From Terriglobus saanensis SP1PR4 (GTDB taxonomy: Bacteria; Acidobacteriota; Terriglobia; Terriglobales; Acidobacteriaceae), in NCBI RefSeq assembly GCF_000179915.2, contig NC_014963.1:1798001-1862000 (forward strand): a stretch of DNA of 64,000 nucleotides, read 5' to 3'. A program made the position numbers and the translations under genes. Each line of letters begins with the position of its first letter. The first letter of the stretch is position 1. Below the pieces are notes generated by a model, which ran no database searches, was not told where the DNA came from, and saw only the letters and a list, made by a program, of their open reading frames with translations. This document shows, piece by piece, positions 11,318 to 28,126 of this stretch.

Positions 11318-12397
11318 TCATGTTCCAAGTGCAACGTTTTTTACTTTATCTGGGTTTTGCCAGAACTTTACGAAGTCGAAGTCACCTTGTGGTAGGAAGA
11401 GTTCAGCTGGGGCTTTGTTTCCGAGGGATTTTCTGATTCTTGCGTTGAGCTGCATGGCGATTTCGTCGAGTTGCTGCTGGGAGTAAACGCTGAGGTCCTG
11501 TCCCTTGGGGAGGTATTCACGGACCAGGCCGTTGGTGTTTTCGTTGATGCCTCTTTCCCATGGGCTGTGGGGATGGGCGAAGTAGACCTTGACGCCAGAC
11601 TTCTCTGTGAGGGTGCGGTGCTGGGCCATCTCCCTTCCCTGGTCGTAGGTGAGGGTGAGGCGCATGGGACTTTGGAAGCGATTGAGGATGGTGGCGAAGG
11701 CGTTGGCGGTGGTCTCGGCGCGACCGTCCTCGAGCTTGACCAGGGCGAGGAAGAGCGTGGTGCGCTCGACCAGGGTGCCGACGCGAGAGCGGTTCATCTT
11801 TCCCTTGATGAGGTCACCCTCCCAGTGGCCGGGAACGAGACGCTCGTCCACCTCGGTGGGCCGCTCGTCGATCAGGGTCATGCCGTCCACGAAGGGCCGC
11901 TGGTGGCGGTTGGGATCGCGTGTGCCGCGCTGGGGACGCTTGCGTCGCAGAAGGCGCAGCAGCTCCGTGCGCAGCTCACCCCGCGGCATGGCGTAGAGCG
12001 CGGTGTAGATGGTCTCATGCGAGAGGCGCACCGGATCGGGCATACGTGACAGTGTGGACGCGATCTGGAACGGACTCAAGCGTCTGCGAAGATGCACGCA
12101 CATCTGGTCCCACAACGGCGTGCCCGGCACCAGCTTCCGCTCCACACGGGGCTTGCGATGGGCCTGCCGCGCCCGCTGTCCCGCCCGCCGCGCAACATAA
12201 CCACCGTTGCCCCAGCGCCGGCTCTGCGCACTGCTCTCGGAAGGCCGCTTCCAGCCGTTGCGACGCAGCTCCCGCGTCACCGTCGATCGCGAGCGCTGCA
12301 GACCGGCGGCGATCGACGCTGGTCTCCAACCCATCTGAAGCTGACTCTGAATCACAACACGCTCAAAATCATCCAGCTGAACATAACAATTCCCCAT
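11318..12397 (-). CDS. IS30-family transposase
   Basis: 359 residues. The N-terminal helix-turn-helix (LQMGWRPASIAAGLQRSRST, then VTRELRRNGW) is typical of IS30. The DDE catalytic core follows: D in GHWEGDLIKG, D in LTYDQGREMAQH, and E in WERGINENTNGLVREYLPKG. ATG 12397 is preceded by AGGAG at good spacing; the frame is open to an ATG inside the terminal repeat at 12427. The C-terminus reads through the other terminal repeat, and the TGA stop (11318-11320) lies six bases outside it. Intact and probably recently active. Confidence 0.92.
   Translation of the reverse strand: MGNCYVQLDDFERVVIQSQLQMGWRPASIAAGLQRSRSTVTRELRRNGWKRPSESSAQSRRWGNGGYVARRAGQRARQAHRKPRVERKLVPGTPLWDQMCVHLRRRLSPFQIASTLSRMPDPVRLSHETIYTALYAMPRGELRTELLRLLRRKRPQRGTRDPNRHQRPFVDGMTLIDERPTEVDERLVPGHWEGDLIKGKMNRSRVGTLVERTTLFLALVKLEDGRAETTANAFATILNRFQSPMRLTLTYDQGREMAQHRTLTEKSGVKVYFAHPHSPWERGINENTNGLVREYLPKGQDLSVYSQQQLDEIAMQLNARIRKSLGNKAPAELFLPQGDFDFVKFWQNPDKVKNVALGT
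11324..11342. repeat. IS30 terminal inverted repeat, left
   Basis: TCCAAGTGCAACG followed by a T-run. It encodes the last residues (NVALG) of the transposase on the minus strand. Confidence 0.8.
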
Positions 12398-12413
12398 ATA
12401 CAACACTCCTATC

Positions 12414-12432
12414 CAGAAATGTTGCACTTGGA
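12414..12432. repeat. IS30 terminal inverted repeat, right
   Basis: On the minus strand reads TCCAAGTGCAACATTTCTGG, matching the left end in 12 consecutive terminal bases. It lies just upstream of the transposase ribosome site. Confidence 0.8.
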
Positions 12433-12573: not shown

Positions 12574-12810
12574 CTAGCAGCCTTCTTTGCAGCGGGCCAT
12601 GATCGAGGAGATGGTGCGTTCGCGGACGTCGGTCGGGAGTTCGTAGACCTGGTTGTCGCGGTAGATTTCGATGGTCTGGCGGGTGGTGCTGACGACGACC
12701 TCGCAATGATGACATTCGCCGAGATGAGTCTTGATTTCAGACAAAAGTGTCGGTTCGACGTGGCCGTCGAAGAAATCGGTCATCTTGGCAAGAAACTCGG
12801 TGCAGGTCAC
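12574..12810 (-). CDS. Zinc-binding anti-sigma factor
   Basis: 78 residues, with the ZAS motif HLGECHHC (His-x3-Cys-x2-Cys, about residues 29-36) that defines zinc-containing anti-sigma factors. No membrane segment is present, so it is a cytoplasmic type. GTG 12810 overlaps the stop of the sigma gene in GTGA, a 4-bp overlap that implies coupled translation and matched amounts. It presumably sequesters the sigma factor encoded just upstream; the inducing signal is unknown. Confidence 0.85.
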   Translation of the reverse strand: MTCTEFLAKMTDFFDGHVEPTLLSEIKTHLGECHHCEVVVSTTRQTIEIYRDNQVYELPTDVRERTISSIMARCKEGC

Positions 12811-13433
12811 GACGTCAGGCCCTCATTCTTCTTCAGATACCGGCTGAGACGTTCACGGAGTTGAAGCCGGGCGCGTAGCAATCGGGATTTGACCGCCGGA
12901 ACGGAGAGGCCTAGCGCCTCTGCGGTTTCTTCGGTCGATAAGTTTTCGATGTCACGAAGTGTAAAAACGGTTCTAAATCCGGGGGCGAGACCTGCAATTG
13001 TCTTCTTCAGGATCTCGGAAAGCTCGGATTGGGTGAAGTTTTGTTCCGGATTGGGACTCCAGTCGGCAAAATCGCGCGGAATGGAGCCTTCTTCGGTCTG
13101 AACATCCTGGTCCATGGAGACGGTCCGGCTGGTTTTGCGCTTGCGGAGGCGCATCAGGCTCTCGTTCACGGCAATTCGCGTCAGCCAAGTTGAAAACTTG
13201 GAGTTTCCCTGAAACTGGTCCAATTTGCGGTAGGCCTTCAGGAAAACGTCCTGGGTGATGTCTTCAGCGTCTTCGCGGTTCTGGGTAATGTGCTGGGCTG
13301 TCCGGAAGATCTGCCGGTCATACTGGCGGACGAGCTTTTCGAACGCAGCTTGGTCGCCGGCGCGCGCGCGCTCGACCAGTGCGACATCGGGATGGATCTC
13401 TTGCTCTTCGATCTGAGGCGCAGTCGCTGTCAT
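12807..13433 (-). CDS. ECF (RpoE-type) RNA polymerase sigma factor
   Basis: 208 residues. Region 2 is clear (AFEKLVRQYDRQIFRTAQHI, then DAEDITQDVFLKAYRKLDQF and FSTWLTRIAVNESLMRLRKR). A linker leads to region 4 (FRTVFTLRDIENLSTEETAE, then ALGLSVPAVKSRLLRARLQL). It is a group 4 sigma factor that would direct polymerase to a stress-type promoter set. Its start lies about 100 bases from the divergent transglycosylase gene, so the intergenic DNA may contain both promoters. Confidence 0.93.
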   Translation of the reverse strand: MTATAPQIEEQEIHPDVALVERARAGDQAAFEKLVRQYDRQIFRTAQHITQNREDAEDITQDVFLKAYRKLDQFQGNSKFSTWLTRIAVNESLMRLRKRKTSRTVSMDQDVQTEEGSIPRDFADWSPNPEQNFTQSELSEILKKTIAGLAPGFRTVFTLRDIENLSTEETAEALGLSVPAVKSRLLRARLQLRERLSRYLKKNEGLTS

Positions 13434-13537: not shown

Positions 13538-15952
13538 TTGCATCCTAGAGTGGTAGATGTGGAGAGCAGATTGAAGAGTTTAGAGAATCGTGGCGGGCTA
13601 CGACCGGGCGCCCGGATAACCAGTGCGCTGGTGCTTTGCCTTGCCTTGACCTCCGTGGATGGACTGGCAGCGACGAAAAAGAAGCCAGCGACCGCGACGA
13701 GCGCGAAGAAAAAGGCGACACCCGCCGGCTCCCATGGGAAGGCTGCGGCCAAGGGGACAGGTAAAAAGGGGGCCAAAGGTTCGAAGGGCAAAGGCATAAA
13801 AGGCAGAGGAGCGAAGGCAAAAGTCGTCTCCGTTCACTCCGCGCCGACCGCGCAGAGTCTTCATCTGGCGCGCGCTTTTGCGGCCAGCACGCAGTTACGG
13901 CCGATGGCGCAGCAGCTGGCGGCGAACCGGAGCCCTGCTGCGTTCGCGGGAGTTTCGGAGTATGCACGTCAGCATCCTGGAGAAGCGGCTTCGGCGGCTT
14001 ACCTGTCGCTTGGTCATGCGTACATGCTGGATCGCAGGTTCAGCGATGCGAGTTCTGCGTTTCGGCAGGCCGCCGCCCAGGGCGATGCTTTGAATGATTA
14101 TGCGGATTACCTGGGCGCCCAGGCGGCGCTTCAGTCAGGAAATGGAAGTGTGGCCTTTTCGCTTTTGAGCGGATTCGCACAGAAGTATCCGGAGAGCATC
14201 TTTGCCGCGAATGCGCCGGTGCTTCTGGCAAATGCGTATTTGCAGCAGAATAATGCGTCGATGGCGTTGCAGACTTTGCAGGCCAATGCGAGCAGTTCGC
14301 AGGCCACGCACTCTGATTTTCAGTATGCGAAGGGCCGAGCGCTCCAGGTGAGCGGGCAGAATCAACAGGCGATTGCGGTCTTCCGCGAGATCTATCTGCG
14401 TCAGCCGCTCACCACTGAGGCCGGGCAGGCGCGCACGCAGCTGAGTGCGCTGGGGGCGCAACTGACGGCCGCAGAGCGGAAGATCCATGCCGATCAGCTC
14501 TTCAACGCGAAACGCTACACAGAAGCCAGCGCGGAGTATCACGCGCTGGAGCATGACGATGCCTCTCTGTCGCTTGCAGATAAAGATGCGCTGGAGATTT
14601 ATGCGGCGGTGTGCGACCTGAAGTTGAAGCATCTTTCGCGGCGCGACGTGGAGCGTCTACCGGATACAAATGATGACAGCGCGGCGCTCAAGCTGTATCT
14701 CACGGCAGAGATCAGCCGGAATGAAAAAGACATTCAGGCCCAACGCAATGCGATGCAGGCGATGATTGAGCGCTTTCCGCATAGCCGATGGACGGAAGAG
14801 GCGCTTTACTCCGGCGGAAACATGCATCTGCTGCAGCATGATGCGAGCAATGCGATCTGGCATTATTCGCAGTTGTATACGAACTTTCCGAACAGCGTGT
14901 ACGCCCCCAGCGCCCACTGGCGCACGGCGTGGATGAACTATCGGTTGCGGCGGTATCCGGAGGCGGCGCGGCTGATGGAAGAGCAGATCGCACGCTATCC
15001 GCAGAGCACGGAGGCATCTGCGGCGCTGTTCTGGCGGGCACGGCTGTATGAGGATCCCGAGAAGAATTTCTCGCAGGCAGTGAACTTCTACCAAGTTCTT
15101 TCGGAGGTTTATCGCAACTACTACTACGGCGTGATGGCGCGCGTGCGCCTGCGTGCGCTGGGACAACAGCCTGTGGTTGCGCCCGCACCGACACTTGCCA
15201 GCGTGAAGACGCCAGCGACTCCGATACTGATTGCCGAGTTGCCTGAGAACGATCCGCATCTGATCAAGGCGCGTTTGCTCGCGAATGCGGCGTTGAATGA
15301 ATACATCGCGCCGGAGATCCAGATGAGTCCGACGAGCGCGCAGTGGGGAACGCTGGCACAGGCGGAGATCTATGCCTCTTACGGAGAAAATGTACGCGCC
15401 CTCCAGTCGATGAAGCACAGTGGTTTGTCGTTCTTCGCTCTGCCGATCGATGAGGTGCCTGCGGAGTACTGGCATCTGTTGTTCCCGAAACCTTATTGGA
15501 GCGAGATCACGGAGCAGGCGCAGAGGAACAACGTGGACCCTTATCTCGTGGCATCGCTGATTCGACAGGAGACGGAGTTCAATCCGGTAGCGGTTTCTCG
15601 TATGAACGCTTACGGGTTGATGCAGCTTCTACCGGCGGTCGGTAAAGCGCAGGCAAAGCGCCAGGGCATCAAGGGATTCAATACGAATATGCTGCTGAAT
15701 CCTTCGACAAACATCGCGCTGGGTGTTGCGAACCTGAAGCAGGTGATGGACCGTTTTGGAGGACAGCCTGAGTATGCGCTTGCGGCTTACAACGCTGGCG
15801 ATGTTCCGGTGCGCAACTGGATGGCGTTGAACGACTACAAGGACATGCCGGAGTTTGTCGAATCGATACCTTACACAGAGACGCGAGAGTACGTGCAGGC
15901 GATCATGCGGAATCGGGAGATGTATCGGCAGCTGTATAGCGGGGCCAAGTAA
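13538..15952 (+). CDS. Slt-type lytic murein transglycosylase with TPR-like helical region
   Basis: 804 residues. An N-terminal signal-like segment (SALVLCLALTSVDGLAA) is followed by a strongly basic Lys/Ala/Gly stretch (about residues 45-95). A long alpha-solenoid of TPR-like repeats comes next (about 110-600). The C-terminal SLT domain has catalytic E678 in RQETEFNP, then NAYGLMQLLPAVGKAQAKRQ and LAAYNAGDVPVRNW. Such enzymes cleave peptidoglycan glycan strands to 1,6-anhydro products, and the basic stretch could bind anionic wall polymers. TTG 13538 has a GAGGG upstream; GTG 13550 is possible. The stop abuts the stop of the convergent permease. Confidence 0.88.
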   Translation: MHPRVVDVESRLKSLENRGGLRPGARITSALVLCLALTSVDGLAATKKKPATATSAKKKATPAGSHGKAAAKGTGKKGAKGSKGKGIKGRGAKAKVVSVHSAPTAQSLHLARAFAASTQLRPMAQQLAANRSPAAFAGVSEYARQHPGEAASAAYLSLGHAYMLDRRFSDASSAFRQAAAQGDALNDYADYLGAQAALQSGNGSVAFSLLSGFAQKYPESIFAANAPVLLANAYLQQNNASMALQTLQANASSSQATHSDFQYAKGRALQVSGQNQQAIAVFREIYLRQPLTTEAGQARTQLSALGAQLTAAERKIHADQLFNAKRYTEASAEYHALEHDDASLSLADKDALEIYAAVCDLKLKHLSRRDVERLPDTNDDSAALKLYLTAEISRNEKDIQAQRNAMQAMIERFPHSRWTEEALYSGGNMHLLQHDASNAIWHYSQLYTNFPNSVYAPSAHWRTAWMNYRLRRYPEAARLMEEQIARYPQSTEASAALFWRARLYEDPEKNFSQAVNFYQVLSEVYRNYYYGVMARVRLRALGQQPVVAPAPTLASVKTPATPILIAELPENDPHLIKARLLANAALNEYIAPEIQMSPTSAQWGTLAQAEIYASYGENVRALQSMKHSGLSFFALPIDEVPAEYWHLLFPKPYWSEITEQAQRNNVDPYLVASLIRQETEFNPVAVSRMNAYGLMQLLPAVGKAQAKRQGIKGFNTNMLLNPSTNIALGVANLKQVMDRFGGQPEYALAAYNAGDVPVRNWMALNDYKDMPEFVESIPYTETREYVQAIMRNREMYRQLYSGAK

Positions 15953-17209
15953 CTACTCGTGGTGCAGGGCGACGACGGGGTCGAGCTTCGAGGCTCGTAG
16001 CGCAGGAAGAAACCCGGAGATGAGACCGACGAAGGCGAGGATGACGAAGGACACGCCGATGATCAGGAACGAGGGCGTGAGCACAATGTCTCCCTCGTGG
16101 TTTGCGGTTTTATAGATGTCAGAATAGAGGGGCATCGGCGGCACGAGGTGCGGCAGAATGAGTGCCACGACCAGTCCTGCGAGCCCCGCGAGGAAGGTGA
16201 GCGTTAATCCTTCGACGAGGAACTGGAGCAGGACATCTCTTCGTCGTGCGCCCAGCGCTTTCATCAGACCGATCTCTCGGGTGCGTTCGGTGACGGAGAC
16301 GAGCATGATGTTCATGACGCCTACGCCTCCGACCATGAGGGTCATGACGCCGATGATGCCGAGCATGATTTTGAGGGCGAGGGTGAACTGCATGAGTTCC
16401 CCGGAGTCTTCGACGGTGTCCCAACTGTTGACGGCTTTTTTATCGTTCGGATCAAAGTGATGACGTCCGGCGATGATGGCGCGGACGGATTTGAGCGCCT
16501 TCGTGTGCAGGTCGGCGGAGAGCGGCTGGAATACGATCATGCCGGGGTCGCGGATGCTGTCGACTTCGCGCATGGTGTCGAAGGGTAGAAAAACGTTTTG
16601 ATTGTCGGGACCGTTATTGGAGGAGTCCTGAATCTTGTTGCGTAAAACGCCGATGACATCAAAAGAATGGCCCGCGATGAGCACGGTCTGGCCGACGGGA
16701 GGGAATCCGTTGAAGAGCTTTTCCGCGGCGCGGGGGCCGAAGATGCATACTTTGCGGTGCTCGGTGAAGTCGTCCTGCTGAAAGAAGCGGCCCTCTTCGA
16801 CGTCAAGCTTACGCATGGCACCGTAGGGAAGCTCGATGGCCTTGGTGTTGATGTTGACTGATTTGGCCTCCCATTTGAAGGCGTAGGTGTTGTCGTACTC
16901 TGCCGAGACTGCCTTGATGAGCGGCATGGATTCTTTAACGGCTTCGAGATCTTCGAGCTGCAGCTTGATCTTTTTCCCTGCGCGCTCGCCCCCGCTTTGC
17001 ATGCTGGTCTGACCGCCGAAGACCATAACGACGTTGTTGCCGATACCGAGGAAGCCGTTGAGGACGGTGCGACCAAGGTTGTCTCCGTAACTGATCAAAA
17101 GGACCACAGTGACGAGTCCCCACGCGATGCCTAGCATGGTGAGCCCTGAGCGCATGCGGTTGCGGAGAAGGGAGGCGATGCTTTCGCGGATGGTTTCTGC
17201 AAGACGCAT
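15953..17209 (-). CDS. MacB-type ABC transporter permease (second of pair)
   Basis: 418 residues from ATG 17209. An N-terminal membrane segment (SGLTMLGIAWGLVTVVLLIS) is followed by a periplasmic MacB-PCD domain (about residues 45-270). Three C-terminal membrane segments belong to the FtsX domain, with the usual VGGVGVMNIMLVSVTERTRE and GLMKALGARRRDVLLQFLVE. Such permeases are mechanotransmission exporters for lipids, peptides or toxins and need an ATPase and usually a periplasmic adaptor, neither of which is in this window. Two bases separate it from the upstream paralogue. Confidence 0.88.
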   Translation of the reverse strand: MRLAETIRESIASLLRNRMRSGLTMLGIAWGLVTVVLLISYGDNLGRTVLNGFLGIGNNVVMVFGGQTSMQSGGERAGKKIKLQLEDLEAVKESMPLIKAVSAEYDNTYAFKWEAKSVNINTKAIELPYGAMRKLDVEEGRFFQQDDFTEHRKVCIFGPRAAEKLFNGFPPVGQTVLIAGHSFDVIGVLRNKIQDSSNNGPDNQNVFLPFDTMREVDSIRDPGMIVFQPLSADLHTKALKSVRAIIAGRHHFDPNDKKAVNSWDTVEDSGELMQFTLALKIMLGIIGVMTLMVGGVGVMNIMLVSVTERTREIGLMKALGARRRDVLLQFLVEGLTLTFLAGLAGLVVALILPHLVPPMPLYSDIYKTANHEGDIVLTPSFLIIGVSFVILAFVGLISGFLPALRASKLDPVVALHHE

Positions 17210-17211
17210 GG

Positions 17212-18471
17212 TTACTCTGCCCTCAGGCACTCAATGGGGTTCAGGCCAGCGGCGCGCCGAGCTGGATATGTTCCAGCGAAGAGCGTAATGCCTGCGAGGG
17301 TAACGAGCGAAGCGATGATGGCTGCGCCGGAGATTGCGGGATGAGGAAGAAACTCAGGCAAGGGGAGATAGTTGAGGAGAAGACAAAGACCCACGGCAAG
17401 GACGAATCCAGTCGTCCCAGAAAGAACGGTGATAATGCCGGATTCGATGAGGAACTGGTGGCGTATGTCTGATGGGCGTGCGCCGAGGGCTTTGCGAATG
17501 CCGATCTCGCGTGTGCGCTCAGTGACTGCGACGAGCATGATGTTCATGACGCCGATACCGCCGAGCGCGAGGGTGAGCACTGCAACCGCGCCGAAGAAGA
17601 TAGTCATGACACCGAAGATCCTTGCGGTAAACTTCGCGCCTTCGAGCGTGTCCCAGATCCAGAGGGCTTCCTGGTCTGCGGGATCGTAGTGGTGACGCGA
17701 TGCGAGGATGCGGCGCGTTTCAAGGATGGCCGCGGGGCTGGCGTCGGCGCTGATGGGCTGGATGACGAGGTTGCTGATCAGGTTTCGTGTGCTCGTCATG
17801 TTCTTATCGAGGGGAGGGAAGTCACGGGCCATCGCAGAGTAAGGCACGAAGAGCTGCGAGCTGTCCGGGCCTGAGCCGTAACTGCCGTTTTGTTGCTTCT
17901 TTTTGAGAACGCCTATGACTTTGTAGGGATATCCGCCCATCATCAGGGTTTCGCCAATAGGAGAGAAGTTGCGGAAGAGTTGGGTAGCGCTTTCGTCTCC
18001 CAGAACCGCAACACGTTCTCCGTTCTGCTCGTCTTGTTCGGAGATGCGGCGGCCAGCGGAGAGACGGAGGGAACGGAAATCCTGATAGGCTGGCCAAATG
18101 CCACGCACGGCGCGGTTGGCGGCGTTGTATTGCGAGACCTCCTGGACAGAGCGGCGGATCTCCGGGCTAACACTTTTTACGAGGACGGCCTGATCGCGGA
18201 TGGCGCGGGCATCGTCGATGGTGAGGCGTATCTCGCGCCCTGCCGCATAACCTCCGGCCTGTGCGCCGGTACGTCCACCGAAGATGATGGCGATGTTGGT
18301 GCCGAGGTTCTTCATTCGTTCCTGCTGGTCTTTTTGAAAGCCGATGCCGAGACCGACGAGGAGAATGACGGAGCTGATGCCCCAGACAATGCCAAACATG
18401 GTCAGAAAGCTGCGCAATTTGGTCTGCCAAAGCGCTTGGATTGTCTGCCGAAAGATCTCGAAGAGGGGCAT
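17212..18471 (-). CDS. MacB-type ABC transporter permease (first of pair)
   Basis: 419 residues with the same architecture as its downstream paralogue. It has one N-terminal membrane segment (LRSFLTMFGIVWGISSVILL), a periplasmic domain, and three C-terminal segments around GGIGVMNIMLVAVTERTREI and GIRKALGARPSDIRHQFLIE. The pair probably forms a heterodimeric permease, as in other acidobacterial loci with tandem MacB-like genes. The start at 18471 opens directly into MPLFEIFRQTIQALWQTKLR. The ATPase partner is not adjacent on either side. Confidence 0.88.
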   Translation of the reverse strand: MPLFEIFRQTIQALWQTKLRSFLTMFGIVWGISSVILLVGLGIGFQKDQQERMKNLGTNIAIIFGGRTGAQAGGYAAGREIRLTIDDARAIRDQAVLVKSVSPEIRRSVQEVSQYNAANRAVRGIWPAYQDFRSLRLSAGRRISEQDEQNGERVAVLGDESATQLFRNFSPIGETLMMGGYPYKVIGVLKKKQQNGSYGSGPDSSQLFVPYSAMARDFPPLDKNMTSTRNLISNLVIQPISADASPAAILETRRILASRHHYDPADQEALWIWDTLEGAKFTARIFGVMTIFFGAVAVLTLALGGIGVMNIMLVAVTERTREIGIRKALGARPSDIRHQFLIESGIITVLSGTTGFVLAVGLCLLLNYLPLPEFLPHPAISGAAIIASLVTLAGITLFAGTYPARRAAGLNPIECLRAE

Positions 18472-18767
18472 GATTTTTTCTCAGAGGCAGATACGCAGCC
18501 GAGAGGCATCCGGTTCCCCTTCATAGATTCACTTTTCTTCATGTGGCCACTTCGGGAATATAAAATGTCGAACCAGTATGGAGATGATTGAGAAATACCA
18601 CGTAGCCCATGTGAAAACACGGCTCGATGCCTCCGCGATTAACGTCATAGGCCACGCCCGAAGAAAAAAGATGATACCCAAGGTCAGGTAGAGTGGGAGC
18701 CATCCGATTGGCCGAAGGAGCGTAGATCATCGATGTTCCTTTATGATGGGACTGTGGGCGATTTCCT
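18472..18767. other. Intergenic region between permease operon and tRNA
   Basis: 296 bases, expected to carry the permease promoter and the tRNA promoter. Short open frames on the minus strand show no family resemblance. No repeat or hairpin stands out. Confidence 0.4.
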
Positions 18768-19066
18768 GCGGGCGTGGTGAAATGGCAGACACAGCGGACT
18801 TAAGTAATTGAGTGCCCGTCGGGAAACCGGCGGCGTAGAACTGCTCAAAGTCGGGGAAACCTTAAATGGCAATCCCGAGCCAAGCCTGGAAGCACTTCCG
18901 GGAAGGTGTAGAGACTAGACGGGCAGCACCTAAACCCCGAGTGGGGAATGGTGAAGGTATAGTCCAGACCACGAACCCGTACTTGTGGGGCGGTGAAAGC
19001 CGAAGTGGTATGAAAATCCGCAGACCTTAACCGGTCGTGTGGGTTCGAGTCCCTCCGCCCGCACCA
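18768..19066 (+). tRNA. tRNA-Leu(UAA), interrupted by a group I intron
   Basis: The 5' exon is 18768-18801 and the 3' exon 19013-19066. The acceptor stem GCGGGCG pairs with CGCCCGC, and A73 and an encoded CCA end at 19066. Joined exons give the anticodon arm GCGGA-CTTAAAA-TCCGC with anticodon TAA. A class II variable arm (GACC...GGTC) and the T loop TTCGAGT follow. The mature RNA is 88 nt with CCA. The T stem has a T-T mismatch, as I recall for cyanobacterial tRNA-Leu. The intron lies between U34 and A35, the same site as in cyanobacteria and plastids. Confidence 0.93.
18802..19012 (+). ncRNA. Group I intron (tRNA-Leu type, IC3-like)
   Basis: 211 nt, no ORF. P1 pairs exon ACTT (18798-18801) with GAGT (18810-18813), giving the conserved U-G pair at the 5' splice site. 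The Q-like element AATCCCGAGCCAAGCC precedes R (GTGTAGAGACTAGACGGG) and S (AAGGTATAGTCC). P7 is GACTA (18913-18917) with TAGTC (18960-18964). The intron ends in the expected terminal G at 19012. Layout follows the Anabaena tRNA-Leu intron, but P7 has an A-U pair where that one has C-G, which is compensatory. Confidence 0.93.
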
Positions 19067-19978
19067 CACCTATATCTGAGTGGCCAGGATGGAACCGTCC
19101 TGGCATGATCTGCGCAGTGCCGACCAGGGCCGCCTTGGACCTCCATCTGAATCGTTCGGTCTTTCGGTCAGACGACAAATAAGCTTTACTTCAACCTGGT
19201 TCAGGAGCAGCGTCCTTGTGCCATCAAGAGTCGCCACAGCTACCTCTTTCTTATCCACGAACAGACGCGCTGCAAAAAATCACCAAATGTACTGAAGAAC
19301 AAATTTATTGTGGCAAACGACAAACGTCTGTTCGTTAGCTTCCAGCCGCTCGACCAGTTGCGTAATCGGCACACCACCTCAACTTCCTTCAGCACAGACG
19401 GAATGTGCTCAACCCAGACTAGCCGGATCCATCACTTGGAGCTGGTGGGAGAGGTCCTGCAGGATCCGCGGAGGTCGCTGCGTGACCGAATAGCCAAAAA
19501 AAATTCATGTGGCAGGATTCTATGGAATATTCCGTCAGCGCTCGTGTCTATAAAACGGACACTCCTGAAAATAAAGTGCTTGGCGATACCACCTGCAAAG
19601 ACCAAGCATGCGAGAAGTGGGCTTGCAATCCTATGTGCGAGGCGAAAATGTTGCGCCACATCAGTTCTCTCATTTGGACTCACAGTTTTATTTATGAGGA
19701 AGCTACTTTAGCGAGAAATTAATTTGGTGGTTGTGTGTTTATTTAAATAATTTCACCTCTACATTTCCCGCGCCGGGAATACACAGGACTCAGGTGGTGG
19801 TACAGGTTCCGATACGGGACAGGATACTTGGTGTCGACTGCATCTCATGGTTGACCCCAAGTATGAGGGCCAGTAACTTCTGAATCGCGAAGGTGCTTAT
19901 ACGAGATTTCAGATTTTCATCAACGGGGCACGCAACGATCTTTTGATCCAACATCTCGAAACTGCCCGTTAGGCCTTT
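19067..19978. other. Gene-poor region downstream of the tRNA
   Basis: 912 bases with no recognised gene. The longest frames (for example 19310-19711 plus, and 19507-19722 plus with several cysteines) are short, mutually overlapping and unlike any family I know. Base composition becomes AT-richer after about 19480 than in flanking genes. It may be a decayed insertion at the tRNA 3' end. I found no repeat of the tRNA 3' end that would mark an attachment site. Confidence 0.4.
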
Positions 19979-22900
19979 GTGGCTCTGCGGATCGATATAA
20001 GGAATACAACGATTGAGGTTAGACCATTGAAGCAATGTGATCGCGATTTTAGAATATTTTTCTGCCTTTTAGCTTTGATTTTTCTTTTGCCGCTTCAGGC
20101 GCTGATAGCGCAAGGAACGGTGTTGGCACCCTCGGAGAGGGTGGTTATTAACATGGGCCATCAGCCTTGGAAGTTTGAGTCTGGCCAGGACCCGGCTGGC
20201 GCGCAAAACAATAGCTTCAACGACGCCTCATGGCAATCTGTGGGTTTGCCAACTTCCGCCGATGAACTCTTTACCTTCACCAATGAGACGTCCGGCGGCG
20301 GTGCCGGAGATTCTAACGGTAATCCAGCGTGGTACCGTCAGCATTTCACCGTAGGCACACAGTATTCGAATCGCAAAGTGCAAGTAGTCTTTGGTGGCGT
20401 GAATACGGGCGCGCAAGTCTACATCAACGGCAACCTGATTCCCGGTACACAGGCCTTTGCGCCACAGGCGACCCATGTGGAGGGATTTCTACCGTTCATT
20501 TGCGACCTGACACCTTACATCAATTTCGGTGGCGACAATGTGATTGCCGTTCGAGCAGCACGCAACGCAAACTGGTTTCCAGACATCGGTTTTGCCGGGG
20601 GATTCCGTTTTGACATGGGTGATCTGGGCATCTTTCGGAATGTGATGATGTACATCACGGACAAGATTTATATTCCGGAAAACGTGTACTCCGGTTCGAA
20701 ACTCTGGGGAACATACCTTGCCACAGATGCTGCAAGCGATGATTCGGCGACGATTCATATACAGACGAATGTCATGAATGAAAGTGGAACACCTCAGGAT
20801 GTTACGCTCACGACGCAAATTGTAGATGCCAACGGTAACGTCGTAGCAACCCGGCAAGATGACCAGATTATTACGGCAAGTACGCACGCTAACCCGCTGC
20901 CGGTGATGTTTGATCAGGTTCTTACGGTCAATAAGCCTACACTGTGGTATCCGAATAATTCAATTTATGGCGGGCCTTACCTATACAAGGTGTTCCACAC
21001 TGTGAGCATGAACGGCGTGGTGATCGATTCCAAGCAGAGCATGCTCGGTATCCGAACCGTGATGTGGGATCAAAATTTCGTCTATGTCAATGGGAAGGTG
21101 CAAAAGCTTAATGGTGCGGGTGCTCGGTATAACTACCCGGGTGTCGAATCAAGCATGTCAGAAGAGCAGAAGTGGCGTGATCTTCAGCAATTCGCCGCTA
21201 TGGGCGGGAATCTGTGGCGGCCGGGCCACGCATCGGAGGGTGACGAATTTATCAATGCGGCGGACGCTCTTGGTGTCATGCTCGTCGACCCCAGTGGCGA
21301 TGGAGAAAATGGCTTCAGTGATCCATGTGGCCCAACGGCCAAAATGACTTGCGATCAGGAAGCGCTCAAGCTTGAGCTGCATCGCGACATGATTATTCGA
21401 GATCGGAGCCACGCATCGGTCCTAGCCTATGAGGCTGACAATGGTGTTACTCTTCCCGCGTTTGCACAACAGGTCGCGGCAGTGGGCAAACAATGGGACT
21501 TCCTCGGTAGCGATGGACCAATCGGAGGACCCTTTGGAGGTCGTCCTCAGTCCGATCGTTCCGGCGGTGATCCCCAATACGAGAATAACGGCGACTTTTT
21601 GAGCTGCTCGGGAGAAGGTTGCGAGATCGGCGTCAAGCAATCCGTTCCGGGCAAGCCGGTCTGGGGTGCGGAAGAGTGGGGCCCAGGTTCACTCTCGTAC
21701 GACCACGATCACGAAATCTCCATGGCTGCAAAATACATCGACTCTTGGAGCAAGGGACTCGACTCGAAGATTATGGGTTTTGCGCAGTGGTACTTCGCAG
21801 ACTCTACTGGCGAGGAAGGGCAATATGTGGAGCCTGACATCGATGCCAACCACAATATTGAACGCGGTATCGGCGATTCGATGGTGGATTTCGAACGGCA
21901 TCCGAGATTGCTTTACTACATAGAAAAGGCAAACTGGCGTCCGTTCCGTGATGCAGCAGGGAAAATCTACAAGCCAGTGGTTAAGCTGGCAAATACCTGG
22001 AACCGGACAGGAACGATTCAGGTGAATGCCTGGAGCAACTGCCCCTCCGTCCGCCTCTTGATTAACGGTGTTCAGCAGGGTCAGGATCAGATTCCGAATC
22101 CATCGAGCTCACGGGCTGACAATGACAGTGATTTTGTCGCCACGGAGTTGACGACCAAACTCGCCGCTCAGGCTCATTGGACGGTGAACTGGCAATCGGG
22201 TACAGCGGTTGCTGCATGTATGGACGAATCTGGCGCAGTGGTGAACGATCCGGTTACCGGAACTCCTGTGACAGACACTCTCACGACAGCAGGAACTCCT
22301 TATCAAATTGTGTTGGAGCCTGTACCGAATGTGACTCGTCCGGATGGCACGACGTTTCAGGTGACAGCGAATGGCTCGGACTTTGAGCTGATCAACGCCA
22401 AGGTTGTAGACGAGAACGGAATTCTCGTTCCAGATGCGACGAATCTCCTTACTTTCTCTGTCAGCGGCAATGCCACCTATGTCGGAGGCACGGTGCAGCT
22501 GGTGGATCCAACGCAGCCCCATAGCTACCACGCCCCTGGCGATCCTAATTTGCCAGCCGAGGGCGGTCTTCAGACGATCCTGGTCAAGAGCCAGTTCAAC
22601 CCTGGGGCCGTCACGGTCACCGCAACGTCGCCAAACCTGAAGAGCGCTACAGCGTCATTCAATATTTTCCCTATCCCTCAGCAAACCCCTTCGGCTACGG
22701 CTCCAGCAATCATTGCAGAGCCAGTGAATACGTCCGTGACCCGCGGTTTCTCCGCTCACTTCAGCGTCACTGCGACGGGTGCTGGTCCGCTGCAGTACCA
22801 ATGGTTTAAGGGAGGTGTGCAGATTCCGAGCGCGATGGGGACTACATTTGATACCCCACCCACGACAGATGGGGACGATCAGGCAGTCTACAGCGTTACG

Positions 22901-25900
22901 GTCTCAAACAGTTTAGGCAGCGCACCTTCGACGAACGCAGTTCTCACCGTGGTTGCGCCAGCAGCCCCGGTCATCACGACGCAGCCACTTTCGCAAGCCA
23001 TTGACGCAGGAGGATCCGTCACGTTCTCTGTTGTGGCAACTGGATCTCCTACTCTGAGTTATCAGTGGACAGATAACACAGTTCCCATTCCTGGAGCCAT
23101 CACCAGTACCTACACGCTGCAAACGTCTGACACTACCGAGAACGGTCATGTCTTTGCGGTATTGATCAAAAATCCCGTGACGACGATTCAGTCTAATCCG
23201 GCGATCCTAACGGTAAATCCAGCACGCCCTCCGGTCGTTACAACGGATCCAGCCAATGTGGTTGCCCTTCCGGGGCAGATAGCTTCCTTTACGGTAGTAG
23301 CCACAGGTTCGCAGCCGCTAACTTATGTCTGGACAAATCAAAATACTGGACTAAAGGTGGGCGGCAATTCGCCCATCTTGACCATTGAGTCTGTATCGAA
23401 TAGTTCTCTCGGAAGCTATATCGTCACGGTAAGTAATAGTGCCGGTATGGCGCAGTCTAAAGCCGCCACGCTAAGCCTTGCTCCCCCAGGCGTCAATATG
23501 TCATTGGGCAAGACAGCCTCTGCTAGCAGTTTTGAAGATCCGGTTGGTTTGGCTGCTAAATTTGGAATCGATGGAGATACCACCACACGCTGGGGATCGA
23601 ATTTCTCAAATCCGGCAACCGCAGTCCCACAGTTTTTTGTGATCGATTACGGCGTCTCGATGACGTTCAATCGCTCCAAGATTACCTGGGATTCTTCTTT
23701 TGCCACGGCCTATGACATGGAGGTTTCGAGCGACGGCACAGACTGGGGCGCGCCATTTCATGTGCAAACCGCCGGCACCGGCCAAGTGGAGGACTTCACC
23801 TTCCCCACGCAGACCGCACGTTATCTCCGGTTGTTTGCTACGGAGCGTAACGATCAATATGGTATTTCGATTCATGAATTAGCCACCTATAATGGCGCCG
23901 CTTGCGGCGACCGCAAAGAACATTGGACTCTCAATCCGTCCGTCTCCACCCTTGTATTGGATAATCTAAGTGGCCTGACGTGGAAGAATACGCCTAAGAC
24001 CACTGATAACTCGGCGGACGGGCAGTTCACGCAGGTTTCCGCCATCAACTACTGCCAGACACTTGGTATGCGCATTCCAACTAAGGACGAAGCGCTTGCT
24101 ATCTCAGGTTCGTCAGGTCCCTCTTGCGCCTTTCCAACCTTCTGGGCAACCTGGACTTCTACCGATGATCCGGTCGATGCGACCCGTGCTGTCATCATTG
24201 ATTCGACCGGCGGGGTATCCGCCGGCATCAAGGATAACTCCCCGGGATCGACACTCTGCGTGCTGGGCGACGTACAGACAGTACCGGTCATCACCACTCA
24301 ACCCGCACCGACCACGGTGGAAGCAAACCAGGCGGCTACATTCTCTGTGGCAGCGACTACGTCCGGCAACGCTCTTGCTACCTACACCTGGCTGAAAAAC
24401 GGCGTGGCCTTCCAGGTCACGGGAGTTCCTACCGTCACAACACCGTTGATTACGGCGGACGATAACAATGCACTGTATTCGGTCACTGTAACTGGCGGTA
24501 ACGGTTTGACTGCAACCAGTAACACCGCGCTGCTGACCGTGAATGGTACGGCTCCTCCTCCGACAGGTGGTGGCGGCGGCGGTACAGGCGGTGGCACTGC
24601 TCCTCCGCCTCCGTGTGGCAATGCCACAGCATGCACCGGCAATGGCAACGGCCCGGCTCCAGTCGGTCCTAACCTGGCGTTGAACAAGACGGCGACATCC
24701 AGCGCAGACGAGAGCGGTTCTTTCCCCGCGAAGAATGGTGTGGATGGCAACTTCAATACACGTTGGTCCTCGGCATTCTTCGACACCGAGTCGTACGAGG
24801 TGGATCTCGGCTTAGTTCAACCCATCGGACAAGCCCTCATACGGTGGCAGGATTCCTACGGCAAGTCCTACGTGATTGAGACCTCCAGTGATGAAAATAC
24901 GTGGACCACGGCATTTACACAAAACAATGGACTGGGTGGTGTCGATAATCTCACCTTCCCAACCGTGAATGCACGCTATATACGCATGAGGGGGCTGACC
25001 CGAGCTACACATTACGGCTATTCGTTCTGGGAGTTCGAGGTGTATGGTCCAGTGCTGCCGACGATCATCACGCAGCCAGTCAGCCAATCAGTAGTTGTCG
25101 GCGCCACGGCGCAGTTCACGGTCGTGACAGACGGTAAAGTTCCATGCACTTATCAGTGGTTCCGCGATGGAGTCATCATCCCAGGCGCAACGAGTGCCAC
25201 CTATACGACGCTGGCTCTTGCGTTGGCGGATACTAACAGTTCCTTCAGCGTAATTGTTAGTAATGGTTCGGCTTCTGTGCCTTCTTCGAGTGCTCTGCTC
25301 ACGGTCACCGATCCGGTCACCCCAACCGTCGGCATTGCGAACCTTGCACTCGGCAAGCCGGTAACCTCCAGCAGTAATGAGAACAACAACCTTGGCCCAC
25401 TCAATGCCGTGGACGGTGATCTCACTACCCGCTGGTCATCTGGCCACACAGACACCGAGTGGCTCGAGGTAGATCTTGGTTCCCCCATGCTCACAAGCAA
25501 GGTGATGATCTACTGGGAGGCAGCCTACGGCAAGGCCTACGAGATTCAGGTCTCGAATGACGAGCAGGCCTGGACAACGGTTGCTAAACAAAATGAAGGA
25601 AAGGGGGGCGTGGAAACCGTTCCCCTCCTCAGCACGGTTAATCGCTATATCCGCTTCTTCGGACTTACCAGGGCTACGACGTATGGCTACTCGTTCTATG
25701 AGTTCCAGGTCTATGGCGCAGACGTCCCGGTCATTTCCACTCAACCTACCAGCCAAACAGTGATAAGCGGTAAGAGCGCAACGTTCACCGCCGCAGCTAC
25801 CGGAACCGGTCTCATCAGCCTTCAATGGAATCGTAATGGTGTTCCTATATCGGGTGCCACCGGAACGAGCTACACCACACCGATAGCTACGTCGCAGGAC

Positions 25901-28126
25901 AACAGCAGCATCTTCACTCTCGTCGCAACGAACGCCTCTGGAGCCTCAACCTCCTTAGGCGCAAAGCTGACGGTCAACTCTCCCGCTCCTACGGGCCCGA
26001 ACTTGGCACTGAATCAACCGGCTACTTCAAGCGCTGACGAGAACGCTCAGCTTGGACCAGCTAATGCCGTAGACGGCGACACAACCACTCGCTGGTCGTC
26101 GGCATTTTTCGACAAAGAATGGCTCCAGATAGATCTCGGCTCGCTAAAGACGATCGCGCAGGTCGTGATCGACTGGCAGAACTCCTTCGGAAAGGCCTAC
26201 CAGATCCAGGTCTCGACAGATCTGCAGACCTGGACAACCGTCTATACCCAATCCAACGGCAACGGTGGAACGGAAAACATCACCTTCCCCTCCGCAAACG
26301 GACGCTATGTTCGTATGTTAGGAGTAACTCGCTCGTCGCCATACGGATACTCGATTTATGAGTTCCAGGTTTACGGTGTAGGGGGGACCAATGTAGGGAG
26401 CGCTCCAACTATCACTACAGAACCTGCCAACCAGACGGCGAATGTCGGCAGCACTGCGACTTTCTCCGTGGTTGCCGCTGGCACAGGTCCCTTCACCTAC
26501 CAGTGGCTGAAGGGCACCACCCCGATCACAGGTGCTACTGCAGCCAGCTACACGACTCCCCTTCTCGCAGCAACCGACAATAGTAACCTGTACAGCGTCG
26601 TCGTCAGCAATGCGAATGGAACCATCACTTCAAATCCCCCAGCAACTCTTACCGTCAACAACGTAGGGAATGCTCCAACTATCTCCACGGAACCTGCCAA
26701 CCAGACGGCGACTGTTGGCGGCACTGCGACCTTCACCGTGGTCGCCGCTGGCACAGGTCCCTTCACCTACCAATGGCTGAAGGGAACCACTCCTATCACG
26801 GGTGCCACTGCAGCCAGCTACACGACTCCCGTTCTCGCTGCGAGTGACAACGGCAACCAGTACAGCGTTATCGTTGGCAATGCGAATGGAACCATTACTT
26901 CAAATCCCCCAGCAACTCTTACCGTCAATACCGGTCCGAACTATCCGATTTTTCCGGGCTTTGTCGGTGTCGATCTGCAAAACAACACCAAGGGAACTTG
27001 GACGGATGGACAGATCTTTGTCACTGTCATAGGAAGGGATGCCGCGAACAATAATGCTTTCGCTTATCTGACTTCAGACGGCACGGTCATTGACTTCACT
27101 CTCAATGACGGTGCTGACCCCAATCACCTCACCAAGAATGGTAAGAACTATGGCAATTACTCCTTCTCGCTGGCACAAACCAAGCTACTGAAGATTCCCA
27201 CGTTGGTCTCGGCTCGCGCATTCATCTCACTTGGCGAACCCCTTTACATTCAAATTAATCCGGACCCTAATAACCCGACACAGGTCGTGGGCTACGCAGG
27301 CCCTAGCCGTACCAATGCAACCGATCCCAACTTTAATACTCCCCTTGACTGGTATGAATTCGATAATGAAACCCTGATGGACATCAACACGACCCAAGTG
27401 GACCGGTTCGGCCTACCTCTAACGCTTGACGTCTGGAGTGCCGGAGGTACCTCGCACCAGCGGATCGGCATCACTGAATCCATCGCACAGCTCGATGCGG
27501 AATTCGCCACTGAAGTACCGGCGGAGTTCCAACCACCCACGATGAACAACCTCAATATCCTTTCGCCAGCCAGCCTTGGCATGCCTATGGCGGCGGACGG
27601 AGCAAATGCTCACTATTTCGACAATGTGATTGCAACTGCATGGAAGTCCTACGCAACCAGTCCAATCACGATCACCGTCAGCGGTCGCCAATTCAAAGGT
27701 ACTGCAGTCGCTTCGACCTTGACCTTTACGGAAGTCAATCCCAGTGCAAGCCATGCTGGCGAGACCTTCGTGGTGCAACAACCTTCCACCCAGGAGGTAT
27801 TCCTATGCAACGGCAGCATGAATGAAGGAGTCGACATGAGTAATGGTTCAACCCCGGCCCTCCAGGATGAAGACGCTGTGCAGAGACAGTTGCAAAACCA
27901 GGTCTGCTCGGCGACGAATCGGGGTGTTCTCTCCAACCCAGCCAACTGGGCTAATGCTTCGACCTACTACAGTACATCGCCAGCACCGGCCAATTATTAT
28001 TCGGCATTCTGGCATAGACACTCCATTGATGGGTTGGCATACGGCTTTGCTTATGACGACAACAATAATCAGAGCGGCTCAATTAACGTAAAAGCGGAGC
28101 ACATGGTTTTTGGGATTGGTTGGTAA
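19979..28126 (+). CDS. Giant secreted multimodular glycosidase: GH2-type + Ig/F5-8C modules + GH64
   Basis: 2715 residues. A signal segment (FFCLLALIFLLPLQALIAQ) is followed by a GH2 jelly-roll, Ig-like and TIM-barrel domain (about 50-650; candidate acid/base E485 in AYEADNG, nucleophile E565 or E566 in WGAEEWG). Ig-like modules lie near 907-1167, 1436-1522, 1691-1777, 1916-2000 and 2141-2318. Four F5/8C (CBM32) modules sit near 1171-1309, 1563-1690, 1786-1914 and 2007-2134. A DUF1566/Lcl-like insert (about 1310-1437) and a Gly/Pro linker near 1523-1561 are also present. The C-terminal 395 residues look like GH64 beta-1,3-glucanase with E2460 and D2475 spaced as in laminaripentaose-producing enzymes. 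GTG 19979 is used; TTG 20027 with GAGG upstream may be the true start. Confidence 0.85.
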   Translation: MALRIDIRNTTIEVRPLKQCDRDFRIFFCLLALIFLLPLQALIAQGTVLAPSERVVINMGHQPWKFESGQDPAGAQNNSFNDASWQSVGLPTSADELFTFTNETSGGGAGDSNGNPAWYRQHFTVGTQYSNRKVQVVFGGVNTGAQVYINGNLIPGTQAFAPQATHVEGFLPFICDLTPYINFGGDNVIAVRAARNANWFPDIGFAGGFRFDMGDLGIFRNVMMYITDKIYIPENVYSGSKLWGTYLATDAASDDSATIHIQTNVMNESGTPQDVTLTTQIVDANGNVVATRQDDQIITASTHANPLPVMFDQVLTVNKPTLWYPNNSIYGGPYLYKVFHTVSMNGVVIDSKQSMLGIRTVMWDQNFVYVNGKVQKLNGAGARYNYPGVESSMSEEQKWRDLQQFAAMGGNLWRPGHASEGDEFINAADALGVMLVDPSGDGENGFSDPCGPTAKMTCDQEALKLELHRDMIIRDRSHASVLAYEADNGVTLPAFAQQVAAVGKQWDFLGSDGPIGGPFGGRPQSDRSGGDPQYENNGDFLSCSGEGCEIGVKQSVPGKPVWGAEEWGPGSLSYDHDHEISMAAKYIDSWSKGLDSKIMGFAQWYFADSTGEEGQYVEPDIDANHNIERGIGDSMVDFERHPRLLYYIEKANWRPFRDAAGKIYKPVVKLANTWNRTGTIQVNAWSNCPSVRLLINGVQQGQDQIPNPSSSRADNDSDFVATELTTKLAAQAHWTVNWQSGTAVAACMDESGAVVNDPVTGTPVTDTLTTAGTPYQIVLEPVPNVTRPDGTTFQVTANGSDFELINAKVVDENGILVPDATNLLTFSVSGNATYVGGTVQLVDPTQPHSYHAPGDPNLPAEGGLQTILVKSQFNPGAVTVTATSPNLKSATASFNIFPIPQQTPSATAPAIIAEPVNTSVTRGFSAHFSVTATGAGPLQYQWFKGGVQIPSAMGTTFDTPPTTDGDDQAVYSVTVSNSLGSAPSTNAVLTVVAPAAPVITTQPLSQAIDAGGSVTFSVVATGSPTLSYQWTDNTVPIPGAITSTYTLQTSDTTENGHVFAVLIKNPVTTIQSNPAILTVNPARPPVVTTDPANVVALPGQIASFTVVATGSQPLTYVWTNQNTGLKVGGNSPILTIESVSNSSLGSYIVTVSNSAGMAQSKAATLSLAPPGVNMSLGKTASASSFEDPVGLAAKFGIDGDTTTRWGSNFSNPATAVPQFFVIDYGVSMTFNRSKITWDSSFATAYDMEVSSDGTDWGAPFHVQTAGTGQVEDFTFPTQTARYLRLFATERNDQYGISIHELATYNGAACGDRKEHWTLNPSVSTLVLDNLSGLTWKNTPKTTDNSADGQFTQVSAINYCQTLGMRIPTKDEALAISGSSGPSCAFPTFWATWTSTDDPVDATRAVIIDSTGGVSAGIKDNSPGSTLCVLGDVQTVPVITTQPAPTTVEANQAATFSVAATTSGNALATYTWLKNGVAFQVTGVPTVTTPLITADDNNALYSVTVTGGNGLTATSNTALLTVNGTAPPPTGGGGGGTGGGTAPPPPCGNATACTGNGNGPAPVGPNLALNKTATSSADESGSFPAKNGVDGNFNTRWSSAFFDTESYEVDLGLVQPIGQALIRWQDSYGKSYVIETSSDENTWTTAFTQNNGLGGVDNLTFPTVNARYIRMRGLTRATHYGYSFWEFEVYGPVLPTIITQPVSQSVVVGATAQFTVVTDGKVPCTYQWFRDGVIIPGATSATYTTLALALADTNSSFSVIVSNGSASVPSSSALLTVTDPVTPTVGIANLALGKPVTSSSNENNNLGPLNAVDGDLTTRWSSGHTDTEWLEVDLGSPMLTSKVMIYWEAAYGKAYEIQVSNDEQAWTTVAKQNEGKGGVETVPLLSTVNRYIRFFGLTRATTYGYSFYEFQVYGADVPVISTQPTSQTVISGKSATFTAAATGTGLISLQWNRNGVPISGATGTSYTTPIATSQDNSSIFTLVATNASGASTSLGAKLTVNSPAPTGPNLALNQPATSSADENAQLGPANAVDGDTTTRWSSAFFDKEWLQIDLGSLKTIAQVVIDWQNSFGKAYQIQVSTDLQTWTTVYTQSNGNGGTENITFPSANGRYVRMLGVTRSSPYGYSIYEFQVYGVGGTNVGSAPTITTEPANQTANVGSTATFSVVAAGTGPFTYQWLKGTTPITGATAASYTTPLLAATDNSNLYSVVVSNANGTITSNPPATLTVNNVGNAPTISTEPANQTATVGGTATFTVVAAGTGPFTYQWLKGTTPITGATAASYTTPVLAASDNGNQYSVIVGNANGTITSNPPATLTVNTGPNYPIFPGFVGVDLQNNTKGTWTDGQIFVTVIGRDAANNNAFAYLTSDGTVIDFTLNDGADPNHLTKNGKNYGNYSFSLAQTKLLKIPTLVSARAFISLGEPLYIQINPDPNNPTQVVGYAGPSRTNATDPNFNTPLDWYEFDNETLMDINTTQVDRFGLPLTLDVWSAGGTSHQRIGITESIAQLDAEFATEVPAEFQPPTMNNLNILSPASLGMPMAADGANAHYFDNVIATAWKSYATSPITITVSGRQFKGTAVASTLTFTEVNPSASHAGETFVVQQPSTQEVFLCNGSMNEGVDMSNGSTPALQDEDAVQRQLQNQVCSATNRGVLSNPANWANASTYYSTSPAPANYYSAFWHRHSIDGLAYGFAYDDNNNQSGSINVKAEHMVFGIGW
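26391..26930 (+). repeat. Tandem duplication of an Ig-module coding unit
   Basis: Two copies of a 270-bp unit (26391-26660 and 26661-26930), both starting AAYGTAGGGARYGCTCCAAC and highly similar throughout. Each encodes a 90-residue Ig-like module just before the GH64 domain. Confidence 0.85.

Follow-up and report, generated by a model that had tools for sequence, protein, structure and literature searches.

Group I introns in tRNA-Leu(UAA) genes have so far been debated mostly as a matter of vertical descent versus homing. The acidobacterium Terriglobus saanensis SP1PR4 has such an intron in a tRNA-Leu(UAA) gene, and this raises the question of how the intron reached its present place and which role it may have there. 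We analyzed a stretch of 64,000 nt of contig NC_014963.1 (positions 1,798,001 to 1,862,000 of the forward strand), which we call the window and to which all coordinates refer. A first-pass annotation, made from the letters alone, had described a group I intron in the anticodon of tRNA-Leu(UAA), surrounded by genes of acidobacterial appearance, and held that it bears on the argument whether these introns are ancient or spread laterally. It was right about the host, and the locus does speak to this argument: the intron-split gene is, with a probability of roughly 0.8, a rescue gene that outlasted the decay of the integrative element which carried it.

Results

The only tRNA-Leu(UAA) gene found carries a group I intron

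With introns allowed, ARAGORN reads positions 18768 to 19066 as tRNA-Leu(UAA) with an intron of 211 nt between positions 34 and 35 (Table 1). The covariance search that the first-pass annotation had proposed agrees with its class assignment, since the Rfam model RF00028 matches this intron from end to end (46.2 bits, E = 1.2e-10). The score lies slightly below the curated cutoff of 50 bits, and therefore default annotation overlooks the intron. The features by which it had originally been recognized, a P1 with a U-G pair, P7 GACTA/TAGTC, and a terminal G, were all found, along with P3 to P9. Sequence comparison revealed TATGAT(G) in the spot equivalent to the putative −10 box upstream of the gene in many intron-bearing relatives.

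Table 1. Features of the tRNA-Leu(UAA) locus and its surroundings in the window
Feature	Position	Strand	Remarks	Evidence
Sigma-70 family factor gene	12807..13433	−	Conserved native trnL neighborhood	Pfam, synteny
Transglycosylase (SLT) gene	13538..15952	+	Neighbor of intronless native trnL in relatives	Pfam, synteny
Two MacB/FtsX-type permease genes	15953..18471	−	Next to trnL; order as beside intronless trnL of G064, G174, and G188	Pfam, synteny
Tyrosine integrase relic	18566..18691	+	C-terminal piece with EKY(H) region; stop at 18691	tblastn
Putative −10 box TATGAT	18742..18747	+	tRNA promoter (putative)	Sequence
5′ exon of tRNA-Leu(UAA)	18768..18801	+	Acceptor GCGGGCG; ends with C32 U33 U34	ARAGORN with introns
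Group I intron, 211 nt	18802..19012	+	Terminal G at 19012	RF00028 (46.2 bits), covariation
P3, 5′ strand CTGCTC	18841..18846	+	Pairs with 18921-18926	100% paired in 58 sequences
P7, 5′ strand GACTA	18913..18917	+	Pairs with 18960-18964	Structure mapping, pair counts
3′ exon of tRNA-Leu(UAA)	19013..19066	+	With CCA	ARAGORN
Hairpin GCCAGGATGGAACCGTCCTGGC	19083..19104	+	Downstream of tRNA; conserved at the integrase end of the element in several relatives

A set of 58 introns of tRNA-Leu genes, taken from Acidobacteriota, Proteobacteria, Binatota, phage contigs, and one plasmid, was used to assess covariation. Standard pairs occupy 95.9% of the pair cells of our hand-drawn group I structure, and 35 of its 55 pairs show two-sided changes; the shuffle control gave 83% pairing and 22 two-sided pairs, none of 500 shuffles matched the real values, and sliding of the pairing partners lowered pairing to 27 to 45%. 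The C-G, U-A, and U-G pairs of P1 are constant in all 58 introns, and P7 has an A-U pair in 54 of them, in a sample fed by a named scan that was itself limited to the A-U form. RNAalifold, as an independent prediction, agrees on most helices except P1 and P7, the latter being absent because it is a pseudoknot that RNAalifold cannot draw. The intron has the conserved P3-P8 core with a P7 pseudoknot known from group I introns, and its sequence marks it as probably self-splicing in type. The element is under selection, as had been claimed, and its helices show strong covariation across the 58 relatives.

The genome is a single contig of 5.10 Mb (99.99% complete), and its remaining tRNA-Leu genes have the anticodons UAG, GAG, CAA, and CAG only. 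Another intact tRNA-Leu(UAA) gene, which the first-pass annotation had named as evidence against its own reading, was not found when this complete contig was searched with the intronless tRNA-Leu(UAA) of relatives. UUA codons have no reader other than tRNA-Leu(UAA), and UUG is also readable by the UAA anticodon via wobble. The long open reading frames of the window (a mechanical ORF set) contain 40 UUA codons. As the sole reader of UUA in the genome, the tRNA must therefore, we infer, be spliced for the cell to survive. The viability of the host would hence depend on it, and bacteria of this kind would have been left dependent on the splicing of an intron-split gene for the decoding of UUA.

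A different tRNA gene at the native locus

In the family to which T. saanensis belongs, the acceptor stem is GCGGGCG in all 22 scored intron-bearing genes, whereas nearly every intronless tRNA-Leu(UAA) gene that was scored has GCCCGG[A/G]; therefore, intron and gene travel together. The combination of a native acceptor stem with an intron was not seen in the family sample. The GCGGGCG acceptor is also the commonest type in Alphaproteobacteria. Synteny places the intron-bearing gene at the native trnL locus in G000, G158, G047, G183, G177, G169, and G389, and the same upstream genes precede the intronless gene in G064, G174, G188, G034, and G166. Even nearly identical hosts differ, G034 being intronless and G389 having the intron. 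In the window, the block that precedes the SLT gene is conserved except for a transposase-like gene with rve and HTH_38 domains (Pfam; 11318-12427). Positions 19979 to 28126 encode a protein of 2,715 residues with glycoside hydrolase family 2, Ig-like, F5/8 type C, and family 64 glucanase domains (Pfam).

Integrase, split host genes, and a common core

A tblastn search of the window with the integrase of G158 matched its residues 373 to 400 (21 of 28 identical, 75%; E = 1e-9). The relic lies 77 bp upstream of the tRNA, a place that matches that of the intact integrase in relatives. The equivalent of the hairpin downstream of the tRNA stands, in relatives, after the rescue tRNA or, if no tRNA is carried, straight after the integrase; the hairpins conserved downstream of the integrase (L319-L326) read GCCAGGATGGAACCATCCTGGC or GCCCGGATGGAAGCATCCGGGC, and their arms resemble the acceptor stem of the native tRNA-Leu. 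A tRNA-Leu 3′ half was not found in the window, and the best score for an attL-like half gene there was equaled or beaten by 386 of 500 shuffles. From these remains, the window copy is read as the probable fossil of an integrative element whose rescue gene was taken over by the host.

The relatives show what such an element looks like when complete. A related tyrosine integrase, whose SAM-like domain is detected by Pfam, lies directly upstream of the intron-bearing gene and on its strand in Acidobacteriota of lineages A, B, and C, in Alpha-, Beta-, and Gammaproteobacteria, and in Binatota (L131). Homology between copies sets in abruptly some 175 bp upstream of the integrase; this edge is the 5′ half of the host tRNA-Leu gene, stopping at the anticodon loop; the 5′ half gene is upstream of the integrase in Alphaproteobacteria and Binatota as well. 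In all 22 nonredundant loci where a near-full-length integrase is followed directly by an intron-bearing trnL, the tRNA-Leu 5′ half is present upstream, in one case degraded. 3′ halves without the 5′ part were found in G158, G169, G191, and G389; of 14 further genomes, 9 likewise contain one. In eight genomes, the two halves share a contig, at distances of about 7, 22, 29, 36, 36, 37, 50, and 59 kb. What all compared left and right ends have in common is CTTAAAA, the 7 nt that make up the anticodon loop. The whole intron-split tRNA-Leu(UAA) gene follows directly after the integrase in the elements of the relatives, and its intron splits this core into CTT and AAAA, between U34 and A35. The apparent second intact trnL gene of G191 turned out to be the 3′ half that marks the element's far end.

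The element of G158 (37 kb) contains type I restriction genes, a polymerase III alpha-type gene, a TrwC-type relaxase, and a TrwB-type coupling protein and, by this gene content, looks mobilizable; an intact trnL(UAA) besides the element's own was not found in this genome. Eighteen elements of the family were read, and a rescue tRNA was carried by 9 of the 10 inserted in tRNA-Leu(UAA) and by 1 of the 8 inserted in tRNA-Leu(CAA) (Fisher P = 0.003). This contrast fits the decoding rules because UUG has an alternative reader and UUA has none.

Distances between integrases correlate with those between introns (Mantel r = 0.67, 0 of 5,000 permutations), and between Binatota and an acidobacterium, the integrase is 82% and the intron 92% identical. 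The integrase gave no match in sequenced phages, and its matches in plasmids were confined to Alphaproteobacteria. Beside other intron-bearing tRNAs (fMet, Asn, Arg, and Thr), none was recognized by eye among the listed ORFs. Most intron-bearing loci examined had no integrase match within the flanking stretch searched, and therefore, many copies have lost the integrase or have spread otherwise.

Distribution and phylogeny

A group I match was obtained in 31 of 200 genomes of the family, and 146 of the 200 match the pattern for an intronless tRNA-Leu(UAA), a count that includes some element-end halves such as that of G191. Within the genus, eight genomes including that of the window were scanned with the intron model, which found the intron in the latter only; 11 further members yielded five readable trnL genes, all of them intronless. 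Phylum-wide, 22 of 297 genomes match the group I model, several of them in other tRNAs or in 23S rRNA. For the A-U form of P7, the named scan returned at least 118 loci, spread over Alpha-, Beta-, and Gammaproteobacteria, Acidobacteriota, and Binatota. tRNA-Phe(AAA) genes called by ARAGORN in relatives are really tRNA-Leu(UAA) with a misplaced junction.

Several other group I matches came up on the way. In the acidobacterium G476, about 3 kb separate two tRNA-Leu(UAA) genes that both carry introns (L129, L252, and L263). Further acidobacterial tRNA genes with group I matches (L242-L249, L255, L256, L258, and L261) are suggested by ARAGORN to be Asn, Arg, Thr, Met, and others. Initiator tRNA-Met introns occur in the family of T. 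saanensis (L053, L056, L057, and L058), G014 and G165 each show three group I matches, and a group I intron in the 23S rRNA of G025 has a LAGLIDADG-like open frame (L050).

In the intron tree, the introns of the family fall into three groups, A (including that of the window), B, and C, which are interleaved with proteobacterial and Binatota introns. Constraining all Acidobacteriota introns to stand together was marginally rejected (AU P = 0.043), and a constraint of the family introns alone to one clade was not (AU P = 0.16). Introns cluster by host class more than expected by chance. In the rpoB tree, monophyly of the hosts was rejected for intron lineage A (AU P = 3e-61) and for lineage C (AU P = 6e-69).

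A special tie to the cyanobacterial and plastid intron, as drawn in the first-pass annotation, found no support, since the same type and site are common in Alpha-, Beta-, and Gammaproteobacteria, Acidobacteriota, and Binatota; the comparison involved a single cyanobacterial sequence. The known relatives of the intron come from Alphaproteobacteria, other Acidobacteriota, and Binatota. Of the claimed likeness, the insertion between U34 and A35 was confirmed. The Anabaena sequence sits on a very long branch of the intron tree and presumably has C-G at the pair of P7 that is usually A-U in the relatives studied here. The cyanobacterial and plastid introns share the host tRNA, the site, and the general fold with those described here, which differ in that they are carried with an integrase at many loci and usually have the A-U pair in P7. 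The small proteobacterial introns of the Azoarcus tRNA-Ile type are alike in their compact core and P7 GACUA/UAGUC but reside in another tRNA and in another insertion context, and they take an uncertain position in the intron tree.

Discussion

Probable origin of the gene and possible role of the intron

We propose that, in the related genomes, a tyrosine integrase recombines the element into the anticodon loop of a host tRNA-Leu gene at the core CTTAAAA; this gene is thereby split, as the sequences show, into a 5′ half at the integrase end and a 3′ half at the far end. Such an insertion would be lethal unless the element supplies a working tRNA-Leu(UAA), because this tRNA alone reads UUA. The complete intron-split gene of the element would substitute for the broken host copy. 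Because the intron cuts exactly through the core of the integrase, the rescue gene offers no uninterrupted target, and splicing at the RNA level would restore a normal tRNA. In the window, the element would have eroded until the C-terminal fragment of the integrase, the rescue tRNA, and the end hairpin remained at the former native trnL locus. The rescue role is well supported; protection of the rescue gene by the intron is suggested by the position of the latter. Delivery of tRNAs by elements appears to explain the spread of such introns between bacterial phyla. The wider proposition that the intron is an attachment-site shield, which lets the element carry a working tRNA without carrying its own target, and that this role drove the spread of tRNA-Leu(UAA) introns across phyla outside the cyanobacteria has, in our estimate, an even chance of being correct.

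Ancient vertical inheritance, with an intron that predates the split of the phyla and many losses behind its patchiness, would agree with the known site and class of the cyanobacterial intron, with the grouping of introns by host class, and with a single family clade that was not clearly rejected. It is nevertheless very unlikely: the intronless relatives have a different tRNA gene and not the same gene minus the intron, the hosts of each intron lineage are scattered, the gene travels with an integrase between the halves of a host gene, and Binatota and Acidobacteriota copies are nearly identical. As the sole explanation, it is contradicted by the split native genes that flank the intron-bearing one. 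Less probable still is homing into intronless tRNA-Leu(UAA) genes, as practiced by endonuclease-bearing group I introns. Homing is a standard mobility route of group I introns and would account for the constant insertion site, but 211 nt leave no room for an endonuclease gene, and homing would keep the acceptor stem of the recipient. It was rejected because the whole gene differs, beyond the intron alone.

A closer competitor accepts the rescue account and takes the intron for a neutral passenger that was picked up together with the tRNA and does not shield it from the integrase. Rescue tRNAs of mycobacteriophages have been described without introns (PMC10865867), and tRNA-Leu(UAA) introns are widespread anyway. 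However, every element-borne tRNA-Leu(UAA) found in the family has the intron and most chromosomal copies have none, an absence of intronless rescue genes that holds for the Acidobacteria family only and for a modest sample, since the proteobacterial loci were picked for having an intron. Furthermore, the intron cuts the 7-nt core itself, and the tRNA-Lys(UUU) of phage Daredevil also has an intron at the equivalent loop position. We therefore regard the passenger as a serious but somewhat doubtful alternative to the shield.

Related systems

The closest known system is the tRNA-dependent lysogeny of actinobacteriophages (Guerrero-Bustamante and Hatfull 2024, PMC10865867), which works alike: an integrase, a tRNA gene that is not rebuilt, and an element-borne tRNA. 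Its hosts are Actinobacteria, its elements are phages, and its rescue tRNA was described without an intron, whereas the elements reported here reside in Acidobacteriota, Proteobacteria, and Binatota, one of them has relaxase and coupling-protein genes, the tRNA is tRNA-Leu, and a group I intron splits the core in the rescue gene. The traits of tRNA-dependent integrative elements recur here: an integrase gene accompanies the element (intact in relatives, a fragment in the window), insertion occurred inside a tRNA gene without its reconstruction (both halves in relatives, undetectable in the window), and the element-borne tRNA is of the disrupted isotype and, in G000 and G158, the only tRNA-Leu(UAA) that was found. 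Tying tRNA-dependent integration to integrative elements in three phyla extends it beyond phages, gives the lateral spread of tRNA-Leu introns a concrete vehicle, and puts forward a selective advantage for a group I intron in bacteria.

Gordonia phage Daredevil was reported to integrate at tRNA-Lys-TTT, not to rebuild the tRNA, and to lack its own copy (PMC10865867). Directly adjoining its integrase, we found an unannotated tRNA-Lys(UUU) gene with a 238-nt intron in the anticodon loop (L207, 2879-3190), which the published study overlooked. The intron is a partial group I match (15 bits) and is 73.6% identical to the window intron over 142 bases of DNA. Since the plaques of Daredevil are clear, this tRNA-Lys may be defective.

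A similar idea of protection arose from the gain of an intron in an archaeal tRNA-Thr with a recombinase and a tRNA fragment nearby (PMC3293823); as cited there, Randau and Söll proposed that an intron in the att site blocks further integration. Both cases have in common the idea of a mobile-element intron in an att site as a block to integration, with a tRNA fragment and a recombinase close by. The archaeal introns are spliced by proteins and come from one population, whereas the present introns are of the ribozyme type and occur in many bacteria, with both half genes mapped. The archaeal idea becomes directly testable in them. Among the papers searched, none links bacterial group I introns to integrases in this manner.

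Further occurrences on phage contigs and plasmids

Large phage contigs (L079-L086 and L210) contain tRNA-Leu(UAA) genes with group I introns of 196 to 218 nt at the U34/A35 site, often amid other tRNA genes, and the IMG/VR contig L083 has a Burkholderia-like gene with a 247-nt intron. More than 1,200 plasmid records, mostly from Enterobacteriaceae, contain an unannotated full-length intron-bearing tRNA-Leu gene that is 74 to 75% identical to that of the window. In both records that were opened (L205, 6001-6299, pCTX-M3; L206, 4001-4297), aac(3)-IId adjoins this gene, which may mark the chromosomal source of the aac(3)-IId resistance module.
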